Below the pieces are notes generated by a model. It saw nothing but the letters and a program-made list of their open reading frames with translations. It ran no database searches and had not been told where the DNA came from. A stretch of 64,000 bases of DNA from Styela clava (Eukaryota; Chordata; Ascidiacea; Stolidobranchia; Styelidae). The stretch is taken from the NCBI RefSeq assembly GCF_964204865.1, contig NC_135254.1, forward strand, positions 16,187,001-16,251,000, read 5' to 3'. How positions within the stretch are numbered: position 1 is the first letter of the stretch; every line of letters begins with the position of its first letter. Shown here piece by piece: positions 4,347 through 37,977 of the stretch. Position numbers and translations under genes: made by a program.

Positions 4347-6467
4347 AATGTAGCTTTGAAAGCAGCAATTAGAGTTGCACAATTGACTTCCTTATCTAAA
4401 CAATTAAGGTTCGATGCGATGACTTATCCATTATTCACACTGCAATTATTCCGCAGACTCTCTCAAGGTAAACATCTCAGCCAGTGAACACAAAATATTA
4501 TTAGTGTCATCAAGCTAGTATTGCATTTAAAAAGTTCATTGTCATCAACTTATGTAAATTAGAAACACTGGTAAGTGCTGATAAAGACAAGCGACATCAA
4601 ATCATGGGACAGTTAATTATGCCGCGATATTTTAATGTTGAAGACAGATTTTAAAGTTATTCGGAATGTTAATAATTGTATCGAGAAATTAGTATCTAAT
4701 ATTAAAACAGGTTATCATAATTATGGTATTTTGAAACCTATTGCCCAATGTTCGTCGGGAAATACAAATGACGATGAATTACAATTTACTTTTATTATGC
4801 ATGAATGGGAAGGGCTATACAAGCGGGTACGCAAATATTCATATATTAACTATACTTTAACTATATAATCAATATTATTCCAGGAAAAGTAAGACATTTC
4901 ACCATACTTCGCTTTTATCGATATATATTATATATAAAACAAGCCAACGGGCGGTTTGATTGAATAGCAACAATAGATGATTCCTAATCAAGCAATAGAT
5001 AATGAATTCGTCGTTTATGCATATGTACAAGATATATTTGTACCGGAAAGACGTTCTTGTTCTAAGAATAGAAGGAATGTGCTATCTATGCCTGTGTATC
5101 GCGCCTGTCTATGCGTGCTTTCGCCATAGTCGATAACTTTTGTGTAACCACATAATTCTTTTTACTTTTAAGCATCAAATACCTAGTTCTTTCTATATTC
5201 CTTACCTTAGCAGCATGCTTAGTTTCTTCCTATATAGGCATTCCCTTAATTAACGCCGAAGAAATTGCTTATTATATTCACCCCAACAAGCAGGTGGTTC
5301 TCGGTTTCATATTATTTGGGCATGGCCACTAATGGGTGAACTTTTTAGCTGTGATTTATCACAGGATCAAGCTTTTTTGATCGTTTCGTGATGATTAATT
5401 ATTGAGTCACACTTGACAGATTCATCAATACGTAGATTGATAAAAGGCGGAATTTAACTGAAACCTCATAAATCAGCGCCGAAAAGTTTTGTGACGTTAT
5501 CCAGACTAATCAAAAAATTTTGTTCGCAATAGAGAAATATTCATGCACGTAAGCTCATAGTAATACTATGAAAGAGTGATAAATAATAACGAATAAATTT
5601 ACTTCGCGTCTGGAGCAAAGATCGCGATTGCGACTTTAGTGACAAAAATACTCTGAAGCATCATCGTTATCATTCGGCCCATAGTTAGGGTTGCCAACTT
5701 TGACAAATTTCTATAAGAGATACTGTGTCAAATATTTTAAATTCATTAATCCCCATCACTTCCATGAATTACGAATAAAAGCTTAAATATTTTATTATTG
5801 CTTACATAGAAACAGTTGTAGCGAATGTGCATTGTGTAACTATGGATTATAATGTATTTAACCCTTTTATATTAATAGCATGTAATATTTCACAAAATAG
5901 GCCGCATTATGTTTGGCAACAGCGATAATGCATTCCCTCCATGTATTGCCTTTCTCGTTTCGACCAATTTGATAACGTATCGTTTCCGGTTTGCCGAGAA
6001 TGCTCTATAATATTGTGTTTTTTGTTTCACTGGATATATGACTTGTGATCTGATCGTAATCTTACTGCATTAGGAATTAAGTGTGTACAATTTTATCTGT
6101 ATTTGGAATTTGGATCGTGCATCTTTTCAATAATATACAACAATTCGACAATCATCATCGTGTGCTTATTATCGTCTGAGGGAATCCAGATTGGGGTCAC
6201 ATTCCATAACACGTGAAATTAATAACGTGGGAATCGAACTTTGAATATTAGGGTGAACAGTCTTTATCCCTAAGACCGCACCTCGTCTCCCTATACAGTA
6301 AAACGTTTAAATTAAATAACATTGTGAAACATCCCCGTGGCAACATCTTAACCGAACTTGATCAACTTCTAGGGCTAGGTCGTTCTCCCGCCAATAGCAT
6401 ACGAAACGCTCATAACGAACGACTGAAAAAAAAGAAATAGTTCATTGTACAATGAACTATTTAAAGG
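4347..6467. other. Intergenic, no gene seen
   Basis: AT-rich sequence upstream of the lectin start. Frames at 4260-4487 and 4635-4868 show no recognisable domain or splice structure. A TATA microsatellite lies near 4217-4235. I see no RNA gene. Confidence 0.6.
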
Positions 6468-11405: not shown

Positions 11406-13046
11406 TTAAAATTTATAAGGTACTTTTCTTCTCTTATCTTGTGAAATATGACCATTATGGCCTGACAATGGCTTAGGTCGTTTCATGGGAGTTAAAGAGC
11501 CTGTGTCATTAACAACAGATTTAGGTTGTAGCTTCATCTTTGCACACCATAATTTGAAACAATTAAGACTCGCATCAACCTTGTCATCACTTATGCAATA
11601 AATTTGAATCTCAGATTCTTCGAATACATCGGGTAGCATAGGTGAAACATCTTCCTTACGAATATGATATGGTTTCCCAGGATCTGATTTTGAGAAAAAC
11701 TTGAATGAATCTATCGGATTTTTATCATGCATACCATAGCTGAACTTTGTGGTATTTGCAATCAAGTCACCTTTCATCAGTATTCCAGATGTATCGAATG
11801 CAGCAATTTGATCGCATACTTCGTCTAATTTCATAGGCGAGATAGGCCTTGCTGCCCCAATGATTTGATATAGTTGCCTTCTTAAAATTCTTTCCAAAAT
11901 TTTGCGAGCCGGTTCCAACTGTTTTTCATTTGAGTGTAAAATTTTATCAAAAATATTATCATTCAGTTTCGTAAAAGCAACTGGATCATTAACACATTCA
12001 GAGACCGAGCATTCTACTCCACCGGTACCAACATATTTTATATACGGCTCCGCGAGAACCATAGCGTCACAAATCATGTGGTCAATAGCATTGGCAACTC
12101 TATGTTGGTATGCCCTGCGGTGTAAAACACTTCGAGTGTGAAACATCTCATATAGATTGTAACTTTCTTTGTCTCTTGCACAAATTTGTAACCGTTCACC
12201 TTCTACTTTTAAAACTTTGATGAACTGCATAAATCGATTGTGATCAAAACTATTACGAATTCCAAGATGATAACAATCTCTAGCAAAATAATCCCATTTA
12301 TCGACATCTACCTTGTTTCTCTCATTTGATACGATTTCATAAAGAAAACTTTTATCTTCACCACGACCTTTATATGGCCAAATACCATTTGTTACAGATC
12401 TATCCACACCAGCAATCATCTCTTTCACAAATGTTACATCGGTTTGAGTTATGCCATACATATCAAATTGAGATTCTAAACAATTTGCTTTGATTAAATG
12501 ATCGATCATCATGCATGAACCTTTTTCATGCGTCCATGTCGAGTTCGGTTTAACACTAGGTAAAAAACGCCCATCAAACATGTGAGAAAATGGGCCATGA
12601 CCTAGATCATGACACAATCCCGCCATTTCAACACATAGAACATCCGTATTAGTAATATTCAAACTTCTCTGATTCTTTTGAAGTAATCTTGCTAACTTAC
12701 CAGCTAAGTGTGAAGTGCCAATACAGTGTTCAAAACGATTGTGTGAACCACCAGGATAGACAAAATAAGTAGCGCCAAGTTGTTTCACATTGCGAAGGCG
12801 TTGAAACTGGGGGGTGTCAATAATTTTCACTAAAAGTGGGTGCAGCATAATATGACCGTGAATAGGGTCATTAAAAACTTTGTATACAACTGAATCGCTG
12901 ACAGAATCATCATCATCATTATTTACAAAGTGAACACTGACTTGACTCTCTTGACTTAAAGTAATGTCATCATCATCATCCAAAATATTACTTAATAAAT
13001 CATTGCCACCATTTCCAACAGTTTCAAATAGTTGATTATCTTCCAT
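11406..13046 (-). CDS. SAMHD1: SAMHD1-like dNTP triphosphohydrolase, single exon, no SAM domain
   Basis: A continuous 546-codon frame. In known members the HD domain hydrolyses dNTPs to deoxynucleoside and triphosphate. Metal-binding residues of the HD fold are visible: H107 (NRFEHCIG), H146-D147 (LCHDLGHGPFSH) and D252 (VDKWDYFARDCYHLGI). The THEKG segment at 172-176 matches the conserved active-site region. The C-terminal part continues with family-typical sequence (RAYQHRVANAIDHMICDA). The first ~52 residues are acidic and low in complexity (DDDDD near 23-27, DDDD near 44-47) and take the place of the SAM domain found in the vertebrate protein. No intron interrupts the frame, unlike every other gene here, which suggests a retrocopy or intron loss. 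The frame is intact, so it is probably functional. Confidence 0.93.
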   Translation of the reverse strand: MEDNQLFETVGNGGNDLLSNILDDDDDITLSQESQVSVHFVNNDDDDSVSDSVVYKVFNDPIHGHIMLHPLLVKIIDTPQFQRLRNVKQLGATYFVYPGGSHNRFEHCIGTSHLAGKLARLLQKNQRSLNITNTDVLCVEMAGLCHDLGHGPFSHMFDGRFLPSVKPNSTWTHEKGSCMMIDHLIKANCLESQFDMYGITQTDVTFVKEMIAGVDRSVTNGIWPYKGRGEDKSFLYEIVSNERNKVDVDKWDYFARDCYHLGIRNSFDHNRFMQFIKVLKVEGERLQICARDKESYNLYEMFHTRSVLHRRAYQHRVANAIDHMICDAMVLAEPYIKYVGTGGVECSVSECVNDPVAFTKLNDNIFDKILHSNEKQLEPARKILERILRRQLYQIIGAARPISPMKLDEVCDQIAAFDTSGILMKGDLIANTTKFSYGMHDKNPIDSFKFFSKSDPGKPYHIRKEDVSPMLPDVFEESEIQIYCISDDKVDASLNCFKLWCAKMKLQPKSVVNDTGSLTPMKRPKPLSGHNGHISQDKRRKVPYKF

Positions 13047-13619
13047 ATTCCCGTAAGGTATTTTAAACTGTTCTAGTTATTAGCATTCAGATTTATAAAG
13101 TACAATACCTTAACCTGTAAAAGCTAAGAAGCAAAAGTTTCATGATTATAACATATACAGATATAAAGCTAGCATTTCATCAAACAGTTATTTTTAATAA
13201 AAAGTCTGCCTTCTGGCTTTCAACCCACCAAGTCTGCAAGTAAACGAATTGAATTTTGCAGTTTTGTATATTTACCTCACTTACAGACTAATGATAATCT
13301 GAATTATTACAGAAATTTCTCACAGATTTGCTGAATTTCCATTTATCAGTTTATCCTCAAACTGTTAAAAGAGTATTAAAAAACAAAGTGAAAAAATGTC
13401 TTAGAATTAGGGTTTAAGTTAAGTGAAGGAATTCGTTTTGAAGATCGCTATCTTCATAATATTTTATTGCTAGGCTGGTCGTATAGGCATGTTGTTGTAT
13501 ATTTTCAGATTAATATGGTAGCCTACCTGCCTACTGTACCGGTATACCGGCTGGCTGACCGGTACGGTAGGATTTACATATTTATCGCGGGGAGATGAAA
13601 AGTCGATAAGACGGCTTAT

Positions 13620-30000: not shown

Positions 30001-32415
30001 GTAGTCAATTTTGGAACAGCGGTTGGTGCAGGACGATTGTATTGAGCCTGAAAAACGAAAACAAACTAGAATATATAAAATTAAAAGTAGGATAAGAAAT
30101 TCTAAAAAATAGCTAAATACCAGTTTCTCTCACAGTATCAAGAAATAAAATAGCATGAAATTTAAATTAAAGTTAGGTGAAATAAGTGTTTTCTAGTCCT
30201 AGTGACTGCAATAGATTCATATTACTAGCGTATTCACTCTTAGAAAAAACAGGAAGATGTCTGTCACTCTGACAGCTTGTTAAAGAGGTTCGAAACTGAA
30301 AAAAGTTGGGTATCAAATATCTACCTACACACACAATCATGTATTTTTATTTATTTCTCTAGTAACTTAGTAACACATTTATAATATAGTCATGTTTTTC
30401 TTATCAATCATATATAAGTATTACCTCCATTTGGATTATGAAGTCAAACAAAATAGCCTATAGGGATTTCATTGACCCCAAAATTTGTCATTATCAGAAT
30501 ATTTATTACTTTTTATCAGTAGTTTTCAAACGCTATCATGCAGCAAGTTTGTGATACAAGATAAGCATTGCAAATTATCTATATTCTAAATGACCACCAG
30601 TTCATGGCAGCAATTCTCAAGGAAAACAAATTCATGTTTCATTCATTCATGCTTAATTTGTAGTTTTTAGAATAAAAGTATTCTAAGGAGAGTTCCATTG
30701 ATAATTTCTCTGGACCAAAGTTCGAAAAAAGTTTGATGTGGTCCAATCCCCAAAACCTTTTGCCTACATAATGGTTAACAGCTAGTTTGTAACTTAATCA
30801 TTGATTTGATGATTGTGCAAAATGCATGACATATAGGCATGTGATTTTTGTACAACCAAAAAAATTAAAATTTTACGATTCAGCTCCGGTATTTAAATTA
30901 TTTCTCCAGTGCTACTAATTTGGGTGTAAATCAAATAGAAGGCAAAAATTAAACAGACCTCCTTCGTATACCGTTTGAGAACTACTCCTTCACTTTTTGG
31001 CATTGTCTAAGTAAATCAATAACCCAATTTTCAGCAAATCGCCAATAAAACCACAACCTCTCCGGCTTTTATCAGCAATTCATCAATTACGAAACATGGG
31101 TGAACAAAATTTTGCTAATGATCAACCAAATTATTCAACAGACTGCCAGTCTAAACCTTCTCACATTACTAAAGATGGCCGAATAACTTTCTCTCCAAGA
31201 TGTACGAATAGAGATGATTTTTCACATTACTAAGTATGGCCAAATAACATTATGTACAAATGTACAAGATGTACAAATACAGATTCTGAGTTCTAGCAAT
31301 GTTTGTACATAAGAAAGGGTTTATTTACATTGCTGTTACTTATTATCCAACAACCATATTTGATACAAAAATCTGCTGTAGTTGTGTTTAATTAGTGATT
31401 CATTTGATTTACGCAATGTAACTATCACTGACTAGTGACTAGTCTATTAAGGGCAATACCAACGAAGCATAAAAAGGGAGATACTCCTACAGTACCAGAT
31501 CATGGATCCATAACAGCTAAGAATAGAGACACTGTACAGCAAAAATGTATGTTAGACATAAGTTATAAAAAATTCAGGTATATATCAAAAAGAGTATCTG
31601 AATATGATTGCGATAGGCTTATTTTATAAACGTATAGCCAGGGATGACCATTTCCTAATAATTCACTTTTCGATAAATCAGATTATTTTTTCAAAGGAAT
31701 CCAATTGGTGATGTTTTTTAGTTGCACTTCTTTGATAGTTTGTTTGGAGGCCCAGACTGTCTCATAAAGAAGGGGTTCGCAATCACTGTTATAATTGATG
31801 TCTTTTAATGTGGGGACCATTCCTGGAATCGGAGAACTGTGTCCGACTGGATAGTTAAACATCAGATGCTAGTTGTGCAGAATTCTATTTTTCAAATGAA
31901 AGTATTCTAAATTCTGACTGAAATAAAATATTTACAATCCCAAATATAGCTAATTTCAAATGTACTCGAATTTTGGTATTTCTGTATTTAGTGCAGGGAC
32001 ATCGCTGTATTGTCACTATACAGACTTTTCATGCTACAAATATTTCGCTCCACAATTTTTTGTGGGCCAAGACTGCAAGAGGTGAAATGAAAGTAGTCTA
32101 TGCAAAGGCTGAATGTCTACCTGCAGCCGACAAACCACAAAAGTTGTTAACATAAACATATTGCGGTTTGGTTAATTTGAGTTATCATTCGACCAATTCA
32201 CCAAATAAAACAATATACCGATACAGATATAGGATTCATACCACATTTGCTACTGGAGCCTCCCATTGTGTCGTCTTGGTTGCATGGTTAATGTAAAACC
32301 ATCTGCTACTTCCAGGATCCCATTTTGCTTCCCATCCAGGAGGAAGTCGAGGTTGCTGTTGCTGTAATTGGTTCCAGCCTGCTTGTTGGTTGTACTGTTT
32401 ATTATAAGGATACAT
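24090..32415 (-). CDS. WW domain protein with three CUE/UBA-like segments
   Basis: Eleven exons in minus order: 32415-32242, 30047-29920, 29344-29266, 28580-28507, 27814-27690, 27030-26944, 26678-26583, 25938-25812, 25442-25251, 25070-24920 and 24188-24090. They total 1332 nt (443 residues) and all phases agree. Residues ~23-54 form a WW domain (LPPGWEAKWD, WFYINHATKTTQWEAP), which in other proteins binds proline-rich ligands. Three CUE/UBA-like helical bundles follow: around residues 79-123 (NVKTIMSEYEGVTEEYIQ to VRRTLHEKGY), around 132-168 (FVASLKGQYPTASEDVIK to ARASLEAMGY) and one in exon 7 (ELRKQFPTLDKSLIELSL). Next is a Ser/Thr-rich spacer. The C-terminus repeats GPxPSL/GPQ units (SGPDPSLANGPN, NGPQPSLRCGPQASN). 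The domains suggest a ubiquitin-binding adaptor. I do not recognise the family. Confidence 0.82.
25560..25790. mobile_element. Copy of the GGTACTCCCG MITE family
   Basis: Contains CGTAGTATGTGTTAGGGTT, GGCCATAATTTTATTCC, TTCTATTACGAGTTCAGGGA and TTAGCCAAGTGAATATA, in the same order as the copies at 36415, 37560, 56502 and 60590. It resembles the copy at 36415 in its extra CAACTTGATGT segment. It lies in an intron of the WW/CUE gene. Confidence 0.65.
27894..28105. mobile_element. hAT-like MITE with GAGTC-rich interior
   Basis: Begins CAGTGTTGG and ends CCAACACTG. The interior is rich in GAGTC/GACTC. The flanking 8-mers GTTTCATG and GTTCCATA match at 6 of 8. A related copy is at about 56220-56440. 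The 67-codon frame at 27926-28129 lies within it and is not a gene. Confidence 0.6.
30517..30987. mobile_element. hAT-like MITE
   Basis: Begins CAGTAGTTTTCAAACG and ends CGTTTGAGAACTACTC, inverted repeats with one internal mismatch. It lies in the first intron of the WW/CUE gene. No internal frame is seen. Confidence 0.55.
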
Positions 32416-32644
32416 TTTCCAATTGAACTAAGTTAGCTGTTATGGAAGTCTGCAAGTTCAGAAGTTCACTATTCAGCTATTCGTGCAACTTTATGCGTGG
32501 CTGTGTGCAGTGTTTAATATAATGTTAAATTAAAGTAAATGAAGAACATTTAACCAGTAACGATGGTAAGTCTGGAAGTGTGTATTGGAAGTCAAGTGTA
32601 AAATTTCAAATACTAAAATGTGAAAAATAAATGCAGACTAGTGA

Positions 32645-33755: not shown

Positions 33756-34599
33756 CATTAATCTGTGAACTTTCATCTATGATTCAAATTTACGATACTC
33801 ATTCACCTTTAAAATTCATTGCGAATGAAGCTTAATCTCAAGATATACAGCATTCTACAGTGTTAACGTTAGAGAGAGATTTATTATTTATCAGCCAGAA
33901 TATATAAAACAGTAGCCTAATACCCGTAGCCTAATAGAAATATTACAACCATAACATGCGGGAGCGATACGACCACGCGGTCAACGAAGTCTGTTTCCTC
34001 AAGTTCCAATTATAAGTTCATACAATGATTGATTGGTTCACACTAGAATATAGTTATTATAAACTGTCTATATTTTCTGAAGATATTTGAACAAAATATG
34101 CATGTTTTCAAACAAATGTACAGGTTGAATATGGACTATAATTTTTATAGAAGTGAAAACTTTCCCGAAAATCTCTACTGTCTGACCATTGATACCTGAC
34201 TGTGCGTGTGTCTAGAATTAGATGCATTATAGCGAAGACCGAAATAAATTGTCTATCTTTCGTTTCGAACAAATGCTTCTGGTCATATAGCAAAGAGTCG
34301 TTATAAGGATCTATTTCTATCAGATTTTAATGTTGTTGGATTTAACTTCGAGCTATGATAACAGTATGGTCACTGTCTATCCTATCACAACAGGCACTAT
34401 TTGAATGTGTCTCCCGGGGAGAACGACGTTGAAAATAGGGTAATTTCATCCGAATTCGGGCTCTTTACAGTAGTTATTTGACTTTCGTGGATATATATTT
34501 GAGCATCGATCAGTGCTCTCGTTTTATATATTCTTAATATAAATGAACGTAGTTTTAAATTTTATTACAGTATTAGTCCAATATTTTGCTATATATATT

Positions 34600-37500
34600 A
34601 TGAGTGCTATAAAAACGAATCAGCAACGCCGTCTCACGTCGTCACTCATGGAATTCTTAAAAGAAGGTGTGCTAACTGATTTTGAGGTCAAGGTATCCGG
34701 AAAATCTTTCAGTGTACATCGCAATGTTTTGGCGGCAAGTTCTGACTACTTTAAAGGCATGTTCTTAAGTAAAATGAAAGAAGTTTCCGCCGGTTACGTC
34801 GACATTAAGAACGTCGACGCCGATGCAATGGAACAATGCATTAAATTTATGTACGAGGGCTGCGCCGACATAACCTTGAAGACGGTGCAAAATATTTTGA
34901 TCGCAGCGGACTTGTTACAATTGGATGGATTGAAAACACTCTGCTTTCAATATTTGCCAACTCATCTTTCACCAAATACATGCATCTTCGTTATCAAGTT
35001 AGCAAATATGTTTAGCCATAGCGATATCAAAAAAAAAAGCTGAGGGCGAGATTATGAAAGACTTCGAAAGCGTTACTCGCTCTGACGATTTTCCATCAAT
35101 CACATTGCCAGATCTCTTGCGTTATATTAAAATATCTACAGGAAATCAACGGATAAATCACCGTCTATCTTGGAATGCAATGTTGAGATGGGCAACAAAC
35201 AAAAAATTGAATTCAGACGACGTTTGCGAACTTATCCAAGGCATCGGGTTAACAAACTTTCCGTTTGATTTTTTACTAGACATTGTATTCCCAGACCAAT
35301 TCTTGAAGGATAATGACGCTGCCAAAAACGTCGTGATCACTTCTCGGTTTTCCGTTGCTAGCAAGGTACAGAACAACATTAAAGTCGATAACTGTTTTGC
35401 ACTAAAGAATTTATGCGAAGATTACAAAATAAACAATTATGATGAAATTAAAATCATAATTGATAAATTTTTCGAAGAAAATTTTGAGCAAATATTTGAC
35501 AAAACAGAATTTTGTCACATTTCCAGAGAAGACATATTTAGACTAGTCAAATCTGAAAAATTGAAATGTTCTTCGGAAGAAGTGAAATGGAACGCCGTGA
35601 TAAAATGGATCAAACACGATAGTAAAGTAAGGAAAAGGGAGTTTGAAGAACTTTTCGCTGTCATCAACCTTTCAAAATTTTCCCGGATGTTTCTTGAAAA
35701 AGTAGGACGTGAAAACTTGGTATTACAATCAGAAAAATGTATTCTTCTAGTTTTTCATGAGTACGATTTAAGGTTGCAAAGCATTTGTGGAAATGAAGAG
35801 AGTAAGTATCAAAATAGCTATAGGAATAGCTTGTGGAATTCAATTGTAAGTCTAACGCAGGGATAGGCGTTTTCTAAACTTTACTCTTCGTATTTCGTGT
35901 AAAATAATATACTTAGTGCGCGTTCAGCATATGCTCCGATATCTTTGGTGCCTTCGGTTAATTACTTAATATTTGCGGATTCCACACGAGTGGATTATGG
36001 ACTGAACTTGGGGTGCCGTGAAGGCTTATCCGGCGGTCTAAAAATAATACACTCTTATCTAAAAGTAATCATTCAGATTTTTATTTTCAGCAACACGAAG
36101 TGCAGCAAAATATCAGCCAATTGGCAATATTGTTATTGAAAAATTAGTATTTGAATCACTACAAGGCTGCAAGAAAAGCGAATGTATTGAGATTGAATAT
36201 TCTTTCCCCAGCGGTACATTAAACGTAAGAAACATTTAGGTAAAAGTGTTGCTAGAGACTTTTTTTGGTTTTATATGCCTATATCATCAATGCCTTTACC
36301 ACCTATGTTGCAAATGAATTATGCGTCATTTCCTCGACCCATGACCCCTAAAAATTTTTTTGGTATACTTTGCCACTACAAATTTCGTATGGGTATTTTG
36401 AGAGCATTTACTCGAGTTAGTTAGATTTCCTTATTTTAGTTCCATTACGAGTTCGGGGACTGCCTGTGTTAGCCAAGTGAATATACCCCCTGCACATAAC
36501 TTTCAATCCCTTTACACAACTTGATGTTAGGAGGCGAACAAAATTAGTTACATACATACTGGAACACACACTTCTGGCCCTAATTTGTGTCTACTGTAAC
36601 TAAACTAAAACTCTTCGTACTGACCATCCAGCTAATTGGTTTCTAACTGAAGTTCCCACGCAGAAGTAAATTCTGGTAAATACCAAGCAAAACCAGGACA
36701 ACGATCAACTTTATCAGCGTAAAAATCGTGTCTGAGCCATCCAGGTGCTCAAGCTAAACGATCTGAGCGGCAGCCGAATTTTCAACTCTTACATCCTCGT
36801 TACTTTACTGCTTGCTGGTCATTACCACCAAAATAAACAAAGAAGTCGATTATTGGGGAAATATTCATTGGCGGCAATCCCACATTTTCATTGCGACTTT
36901 TGTGCCTAATGTGGTTCAGGTAAAGAAATTTATTTGCGAGGATGGTCGATACGCTGCGCCTATCGCACGGCTGTTGCTAGACTCATTATACAGAATCGAC
37001 CGCATTTGCGTTGGGCAGTGATATATATAGTAAATTTAAATGAAATTGAATCGCATATTATATTTAGGGGATTTCTTATCTAAGCAAAGAATTCACTGCT
37101 TATTTGCCCAACGATCCCACTGGAGAACATCTTGCCGCTCTTTTAAGACAAGCCTTTATAAATGGCCTGACTTTTAAAATTGATGAAGTCGCAAGCGGAC
37201 AGGGAAGAATTGTCTGGAATGATATACCACATAAAACAAGACAAGATGGAGGACCAGAAAAGTCAGTACTTACTTTGTTATGTCCATTTATCGCCGTATT
37301 ATTAATTAAAAGTATCGTTAACCCGTCTTGTTGTCAATTAAGCCAAGGGACGTAAGACAAACGCAAAATTCGATAACGTAATGTACCTCAAAATATTGAG
37401 TGATCGTTGGCTGATAAATACTTTAATCAGACATCCTCTTGTCAAACTTCTTTGTATGTTTATAAATTGAATTTGTGCTGTATATATATGAAGTCAAATG

Positions 37501-37977
37501 CAAGCTCTTAATAAATTCTTTTCAATTTTTAAGATTGATAGTAGGTCTACTGATAATTGGGTACTCCCGAAGTATGTGAACCAAGATGGCGGACACCGGA
37601 ATGTAGTATGTGCCAGGTTAGGGTTAGGGTATAATTTCAGGTACAAATACTACGGGAGTCACTTGGCTAGTCCCCGAACTTGTAATAGAGTTAAAATAAG
37701 GAAAATTGGAATAAAATTATGGCCTAACCTGGTACACATACTACGTTCCGGTGTCCGACATCTTGGTTCACATACTTCGGGAGTACCGGTAATTGTTATT
37801 ATCAGACTAAAAAAACTTTCCGGTGCTTTCAATATTGTCTCATTGACTGTTTTTTTCTAGTTCAAAGTATTTTCAATATTGCAATATATATTATTATATT
37901 TTGACAGCAATGGATACCCAGATCCAAATTATCTCCCTCTTCTTCGTCAAACTTTGGAAGCGAAAGGAATAAAATGA
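34600..37977 (+). CDS. BTB-BACK-BACK protein fused to a Deltex C-terminal (DTC) domain; one frameshift
   Basis: Four exons: 34600-35801, 36091-36224, 37068-37261 and 37908-37977. With one A removed from the 10-A run at 35029-35038 the frame is 532 residues; as written it stops after SDIKKKS. The BTB domain is ~10-120 (DFEVKVSGKSFSVHRNVLAA, YFKGMF). A first BACK-like region (~125-235, LANMFSHSDIKKKAEGEI) and a second (~250-385, WNAVIKWI, FEELFAVINLSKF) follow, as in kelch-like cullin-3 adaptors, but there are no kelch repeats. Residues ~401-532 match the DTC domain of Deltex E3 ligases: IEIEYSFPSGT, TAYLPNDPTGEHL, IVWNDIPHKT and GYPDPNYLPLLRQTLEAKGI. No RING finger precedes it. Splice phases 1, 0 and 2 are all matched. 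ATG 34543 in frame would add 19 hydrophobic residues; 34600 gives the usual adaptor start. Confidence 0.8.
36415..36640. mobile_element. Copy of the GGTACTCCCG MITE family (long form)
   Basis: Shares TTAGTTCCATTACGAGTTCG, TTAGCCAAGTGAATATA, CAACTTGATGT and GGCGAACAAAATTAGTTA with 25605-25750. Its ends are decayed. Lies in intron 2 of the BTB-DTC gene. Confidence 0.6.
37560..37787. mobile_element. GGTACTCCCG MITE, near-complete copy
   Basis: Inverted repeats of about 40 nt start GGTACTCCCGAAGTATGTGA and end with the complement. The centre includes GGTTAGGGTTAGGG. The flanking 8-mers GATAATTG and GGTAATTG match at 7 of 8. It lies in the last intron of the BTB-DTC gene and explains the 120-codon frame there. 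Confidence 0.8.

Follow-up and report, generated by a model that had tools for sequence, protein, structure and literature searches.

A BTB-BACK-DTC gene of Styela clava, a probable diverged member of a family of CUL3 substrate receptors

The gene at 34600-37977 (+) of the window, by which we mean the whole stretch of 64,000 nucleotides that was analysed (C5:16,187,001-16,251,000 of the styelid sea squirt Styela clava), joins a BTB-BACK-BACK front to a complete Deltex C-terminal (DTC) domain across four exons whose splice sites and phases agree. That this architecture is real is near-certain. From comparison with its relatives we suggest, at a probability of about 0.6, that the gene is a diverged member of a set of CUL3 substrate receptors of S. 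clava, in which the DTC would act as a diversifying recognition domain, perhaps in defence. An earlier sequence-only reading of this DNA had recognised the unusual gene; a frame shift in its first exon, the large family to which it belongs, the kinase partners of the DTC and the diversifying patches of that domain are additions of the present analysis.

Structure of the window gene and its CUL3-facing front

Every intron of the gene has GT and AG at its ends: the exons end at 35801, 36224 and 37261, the following ones start at 36091, 37068 and 37908, and the joins, in phases 1, 0 and 2, lead to a stop codon at 37975-37977. These are exactly the borders that the sequence-only reading had drawn. 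Translation probably starts at the ATG at 34600; another in-frame ATG lies upstream at 34543. Exon 1 (34600..35801, +) encodes a BTB/POZ domain (34648..34965, +; residues 17-122), a first BACK-like region, and a second BACK domain (35432..35701, +), exon 2 (36091..36224, +) the end of the linker and the start of the DTC, exon 3 (37068..37261, +) the core of the DTC, and exon 4 (37908..37977, +) its end and the stop. Pfam, run on two pieces split at the frame shift, gives BTB at 5.8e-25, BACK at 4e-19 and DTC (PF18102) at 4.1e-25, the last match spanning positions 4-133 of the 133 in the profile. In the protein read through the shift, Pfam recognises BTB and DTC, along with two stretches of BACK when the cut is set at a lenient 10, and neither a RING nor kelch repeats, which rules out a hidden RING and bears out the proposed architecture.

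The first exon had been described as a single open frame with a BTB domain and two BACK regions; the domains stand, the single frame does not. The BTB frame (34543-35043) stops just past a run of ten A (35029-35038, +) within the first BACK-like region, by eye in its 3-box part, and the BACK frame (35003-35866) continues in a different phase. Runs of A or T of at least 10 occur eight times in the window, this one included. The open frames are not due to chance, because 400 codons of this composition would be expected to hold about 29 stops, with a probability of about 5e-14 of holding none.

For KLHL3, the excerpted text of PMC3616122 gives the phi-x-E motif that binds CUL3 as M83-S84-E85. The window protein has Met-Lys-Glu at this place (34774..34782, +, located by alignment and motif count), and in the 53 scored BTB-labelled proteins of the family (three of the 56 were unscored) the motif reads LKE in 26, MKE in 25, MRE in one and LKK in one, that is, LKE, MKE or MRE in 52 of 53. 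BTB, BACK and phi-x-E, the features that mark a BTB adaptor of CUL3, are thus all found, with the frame shift of the window copy falling between the BTB and the second BACK. They are common to the BTB-BACK-Kelch (KLHL) adaptors (KLHL3, KLHL11 and the kelch-bearing Styela relative P0062, which also has the two BACK stretches of the window protein), whereas the window family lacks the kelch propeller and has a DTC instead. A Foldseek search with the model of the family protein P0002 as one query found both KLHL11-Cul3 (9.7e-8) and the DTC of DTX3L (2.3e-6), the BTB part of the model being of low confidence. It is plausible that a protein of the window type would recruit CUL3.

The window has other features of note. 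An apparently intronless open frame of 556 residues at 11406-13076 (-) has an HD domain (6.9e-9) and resembles SAMHD1; upstream of the BTB-DTC gene and on the opposite strand, a short glutamine-rich frame at 32236-32427 (-) carries a WW domain (2.6e-15); and inverted repeat arms at about 37560-37795, within intron 3, have by eye the look of a small non-autonomous transposon.

The Styela clava family and its fronts

Of the 90 proteins that the protein searches retrieved, 81 belong to the Styela family; the nine left out are eight from other organisms or unnamed and the kelch protein P0062. A purpose-built HMM detects a DTC in 76 of the 81, near-complete in 61, and these 61 comprise 38 with BTB-BACK fronts, 14 with kinase fronts, seven with no recognised front and two with a weak ZU5-like front (the labels rest on motif patterns, of which that for kinases was loosened for this set; P0055 was labelled by hand). 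The joint BTB and DTC architecture, for which the sequence-only reading had proposed a search, is therefore carried by annotated proteins of S. clava. P0022 and P0027 are each one protein matching genomic front and DTC exons at 99-100%, P0020, P0023 and P0042 (BTB) and P0068 (kinase) do so at 93-100%, and P0042 matches the locus L023 on C9 at 96-100%. The protein searches, which reach relatives sharing short words, found no BTB-DTC protein outside S. clava. The claim that no such protein had been described was borne out for the part of the literature that was covered, in that neither BTB-DTC nor kinase-DTC was found among the titles and abstract openings examined (subscription journals and bioRxiv lie outside this coverage), but not for the databases, where S. 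clava proteins stand as 'uncharacterized' or 'kelch-like'.

With the 68-residue DTC exon as query, the genome gives 88 matches, two of which adjoin and were merged, and hence at least 87 loci, these counts being lower bounds: 48 on C5, 31 on C6, four on C19 and one each on C1, C8, C9 and C10. A front on the same strand precedes the DTC by no more than 13 kb at 72 of the 87 (53 BTB-BACK, 19 IRE1-like kinase), or at 71 without the window's own BTB exon, which is frame-shifted, was not listed and was added by hand. The 72 DTCs have 72 distinct fronts, none of which serves two DTCs; at the other 15 loci neither a BTB nor a kinase front was found within 13 kb. Changing the distance limit gives 38 of 87 at 5 kb, 63 at 8 kb, 69 at 10 kb and 74 at 20 kb. 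As controls, opposite-strand fronts pair with none of the 87 loci and same-strand fronts downstream with 16. Viewed from the fronts, 52 of the 58 BTB exons of array type are followed by a DTC exon within 13 kb; so are 19 of the 25 kinase exons, but none of the 16 BTB exons of kelch type. The BTB exons come from 74 matches (58 array-type ones mapped, the other 16 added later without change) and the kinase exons likewise from 74, of which 25 were used and 49 omitted as fragments or as lying away from DTC loci by eye. A first map, in which 52 DTC matches became 47 on removal of the Deltex-type L001-L004 and C1:11086549, had 30 BTB and 12 kinase fronts within 13 kb. Exon phases, annotated single proteins and the pairing of fronts with DTCs together rule out that the architecture arose by chance or mis-splicing. 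Some annotated links between front and DTC may still stem from faulty gene models, given the tandem arrangement. In both arrays (C5 and C6) genes with kinase fronts alternate irregularly with BTB genes. The window gene is an outlying and diverged family member outside the arrays.

Several loci depart from the common pattern. On C19 at 1.45-1.66 Mb (L019-L022), BTB-DTC copies that closely resemble one another have stops or frame shifts in their BTB exons, and on C8 at 11.70 Mb (L030:843-3092, -) a BTB-BACK front is followed by a long run of FG-type repeats, reminiscent of nucleoporins, before the DTC exons. Exon 3 of L027 has an in-frame stop. The BTB-BACK exon of the same locus seemed to run into a DTC-like start, and the match ranked first of 501 (500 of them shuffles); we rejected it since, although in register, it scores only 2.5 bits (E 4.5) and is not evidence.

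The kinase front was compared with known structures for P0065, whose nearest PDB entry is IRE1 (5.9e-22). The likeness to IRE1-type kinases lies in the kinase itself, whereas the RNase part is unmatched in P0065 and a C-terminal DTC is found instead. A further dense array of related kinase exons lies on C10 at about 4.07-4.38 Mb; these share 33-35% identity with the kinase query, and no DTC exon match lies there. A ZU5-like third front is kept as a lead and perhaps exists: Pfam ZU5 falls below its cut-off (0.053 and 0.023; 0.0057 for the excised part), the PDB search gave no meaningful match, and the fold model, at a mean pLDDT of 36.5, is uninformative. Four of the 15 unpaired DTCs have a ZU5-like exon upstream on their own strand at a distance of up to 13 kb, and a fifth has one at 14.4 kb. 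The C6 array contains six ZU5-like exons (21.79, 21.86, 21.89, 21.94, 22.36 and 22.38 Mb), which share 96-99% identity with the query; one of them has a BTB exon on one side and a DTC exon on the other.

Fronts and DTCs are decoupled, the fronts being scattered over the DTC tree no differently from chance. On the tree of the 61 DTCs, in which 9 of 55 branches are well supported, the four front labels need 21 changes, against a mean of 21.0 after shuffling (130 of 200 shuffles are as low); the well-supported branches by themselves force at least five changes for the BTB label and at least six for the kinase label. Over 110 residues the DTC of P0003 (BTB) is the same as that of P0074 (kinase). 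This decoupling could owe something to exon exchange, to alternative splicing between neighbouring genes and to gene-model errors.

Residues and variable patches of the DTC

The DTC of the window gene is complete and retains the fold of the Deltex ligases (DTX3L, DTX2), with 3pg6 as its best solved relative. In contrast to these ligases, the gene lacks a RING and has a shorter loop before the DTC core, and the DTC of the family has variable patches and sits behind BTB-BACK or a kinase. No RING was found in the 10 Styela proteins checked either. The catalytic DTC residues of DTX2 are His582 and Glu608 in the excerpted text of PMC7615817, and the part of PMC11460948 available names His594 as a further DTC residue. 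The window has Pro, Asn and Thr at the places of His582, His594 and Glu608. In the 61 near-complete Styela DTCs, aligned to DTX3L, the place of His582 holds Pro in 58 and Ser in three (His in none), that of His594 Asn in 59, His in one and Asp in one, and that of Glu608 Ala in 57, Val, Ile and Ser in one each and a gap in one (Glu in none). The Deltex-type Styela genes L001 and L003 retain His and Glu, whereas the Styela RING-DTC gene L002 has Pro, Tyr and Thr at those places and the Dimorphilus RING-DTC protein P0017 has Pro at the place of His582. We regard the loss of the Deltex catalytic residues from the window and family DTCs as firm on this alignment; ADP-ribose binding via other residues is conceivable. 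The Styela RING-DTC gene (L029/L002, its RING read by eye) is separate from the family, and may stand close to the origin of the family DTC. It lies on C1 at 11.08 Mb, with extra DTC-like fragments upstream, also noted by eye.

These residues bear on two readings in which the DTC would keep its Deltex chemistry. The sequence-only reading held that the DTC binds ADP-ribose and that the protein would deliver ADP-ribosylated targets to CUL3. The DTC fold is retained (Pfam, Foldseek) and the pockets of human Deltex DTCs bind ADP-ribose in the accessible text of PMC11460948, but all three places are changed in the window and in almost every one of the 61 copies; we find this reading improbable and set it aside as unsupported, not as disproved. 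The losses of His and Glu alone are not decisive, because the RING-DTC proteins P0017 and L002 share the Pro and L002 has no Glu either. CUL3 complexes carry a RING protein, and one could imagine a split Deltex in which RBX1 of the complex supplies the RING and the DTC presents ADP-ribose for ubiquitin transfer. We give this hardly any credence: although RING and DTC form the minimal catalytic unit (PMC7615817, excerpted text), both catalytic residues are gone in the window (Pro, Thr), and neither His582 nor Glu608 is found in any of the 61 Styela copies (one gapped at Glu608).

Selection was evaluated in 14 copies from C5, with BTB, kinase or no identified front, out of 20 stretches (those from C19, C9 and C6 were omitted as divergent or broken); exons 2-4 are open and splice sites conserved in all 14. 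For comparison we used the 12 proteins found first (P0001-P0012), which are of C6 type, the contig being known for five. Column variability agrees between the two sets (Spearman 0.51, p 7e-11, 141 columns). It also agrees between BTB-borne and kinase-borne DTCs (0.84, 134 columns), a correlation that is not independent because both come from the same arrays. At the 34 columns that vary in P0001-P0012, the C5 copies have a pN of 0.296 and a pS of 0.153, giving a pN/pS of 1.93 (1.16-3.97; intervals by bootstrap over columns), as against 0.66 (0.43-1.06) at the 112 other scored DTC columns and 1.09 (0.81-1.50) over the whole DTC. Divergence in the introns that flank exons 2 and 3 is 0.292, 0.166, 0.118 and 0.211, so that the pN of the variable sites exceeds three of the four flanks and equals the fourth. 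BTB-BACK-BACK gives 0.31 (0.24-0.39) in five copies, in which the variable DTC columns give 1.77 with an interval that includes 1 (0.96-3.93). On these ratios, the cullin-facing front is under purifying selection, and diversification of the DTC in the arrayed copies appears well supported, if not beyond dispute. The arrays show both tandem paralogues and, by the estimate from 14 copies, positively selected sites, the marks of a diversifying family; the window copy lies outside them.

In the P0002 model, whose DTC has a pLDDT mostly of 78-92 by block (one block at 52), the variable sites lie on the first strand and in the turn after it, in the loop and initial turns of one helix, and on the final helix. 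The corresponding patches of the window gene, all on the + strand and transferred by hand from alignment columns, are 1a on the first DTC strand (36129..36152, columns 25-32), 1b in the turn and the start of a strand (36171..36188, columns 39-45), 2 in the loop and helix after YLP (37110..37148, columns 76-88) and 3 at positions of the last helix (37924..37959, columns 133-144). At the locus L012, two copies of DTC exon 2 with differing variable patches (2568-2711 and 5498-5647) precede a single exon 3; the first copy is matched to a point short of the exon end.

A recognition system and its possible role

We suggest that the BTB-BACK front would dock on CUL3-RBX1, that the DTC patches would bind changing ligands, protein or other, and that targets so bound would become ubiquitylated; in the kinase-DTC versions, the same recognition would lead to phosphorylation. 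Intracellular defence against parasites or viruses would be the likeliest selective cause, by analogy with the MATH-BTB and F-box adaptors of nematodes. Those adaptors form large birth-death families comparable to that of Styela, with a conserved cullin-binding part and a positively selected substrate-recognition part, and are taken to serve in defence (the excerpted text of PMC4334554, citing Thomas 2006). They differ in that the recognition domain of Styela is a DTC, common to the kinase fronts as well. We place the window gene at the margin of the receptor family because the conserved cullin side, the diversifying DTC and the many tandem copies match the nematode pattern. A role of the family in immunity is, by the same analogy, perhaps to be expected.

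Two further readings were weighed. The window locus itself could be a pseudogene, in which case only its relatives matter: exon 1 is frame-shifted, and no annotated protein for the locus was found among the 90 retrieved, the best full-length match being at about 42%. Runs of ten A are, on the other hand, common assembly errors, and the remaining codons and splice sites are all intact in a protein that is about 40-42% identical over its length to the best family proteins. An old pseudogene is less likely because there is a single shift and the other frames are intact at this distance; either a mistake of assembly at the homopolymer or a null allele of very recent origin would be likelier, and we think it somewhat unlikely that the locus is dead. 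The diversification might also stem from reproduction or genetic conflict (self/non-self recognition of gametes, selfish elements), with the same mechanism and no pathogen involved. Fast-diversifying tandem arrays arise in that way as well, and ascidians have polymorphic self-recognition genes; nothing specific points to it here, and BTB-BACK and kinase fronts are, we assume, of intracellular types. We judge this cause quite unlikely, and prefer the diverged CUL3 receptor with a possible role in defence.

A wider proposal, which we advance tentatively and at somewhat less than even odds, is that S. clava possesses a modular intracellular recognition system of about 87 variable DTC cassettes with interchangeable fronts (CUL3 adaptor, IRE1-like kinase, perhaps ZU5-like), a chordate counterpart of NLR and MATH-BTB proteins built on the Deltex domain minus its ADP-ribose chemistry. 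If so, a tunicate, of the sister group of vertebrates, would have derived a large and diversified set of receptors from a domain known chiefly for the ubiquitylation of ADP-ribose and nucleic acids, and the DTC fold would be able to serve as a recognition scaffold. The family would then provide a naturally occurring library of receptors, of both CUL3 and kinase type, with one common sensor, and a candidate for how an invertebrate chordate may recognise foreign proteins inside its cells.
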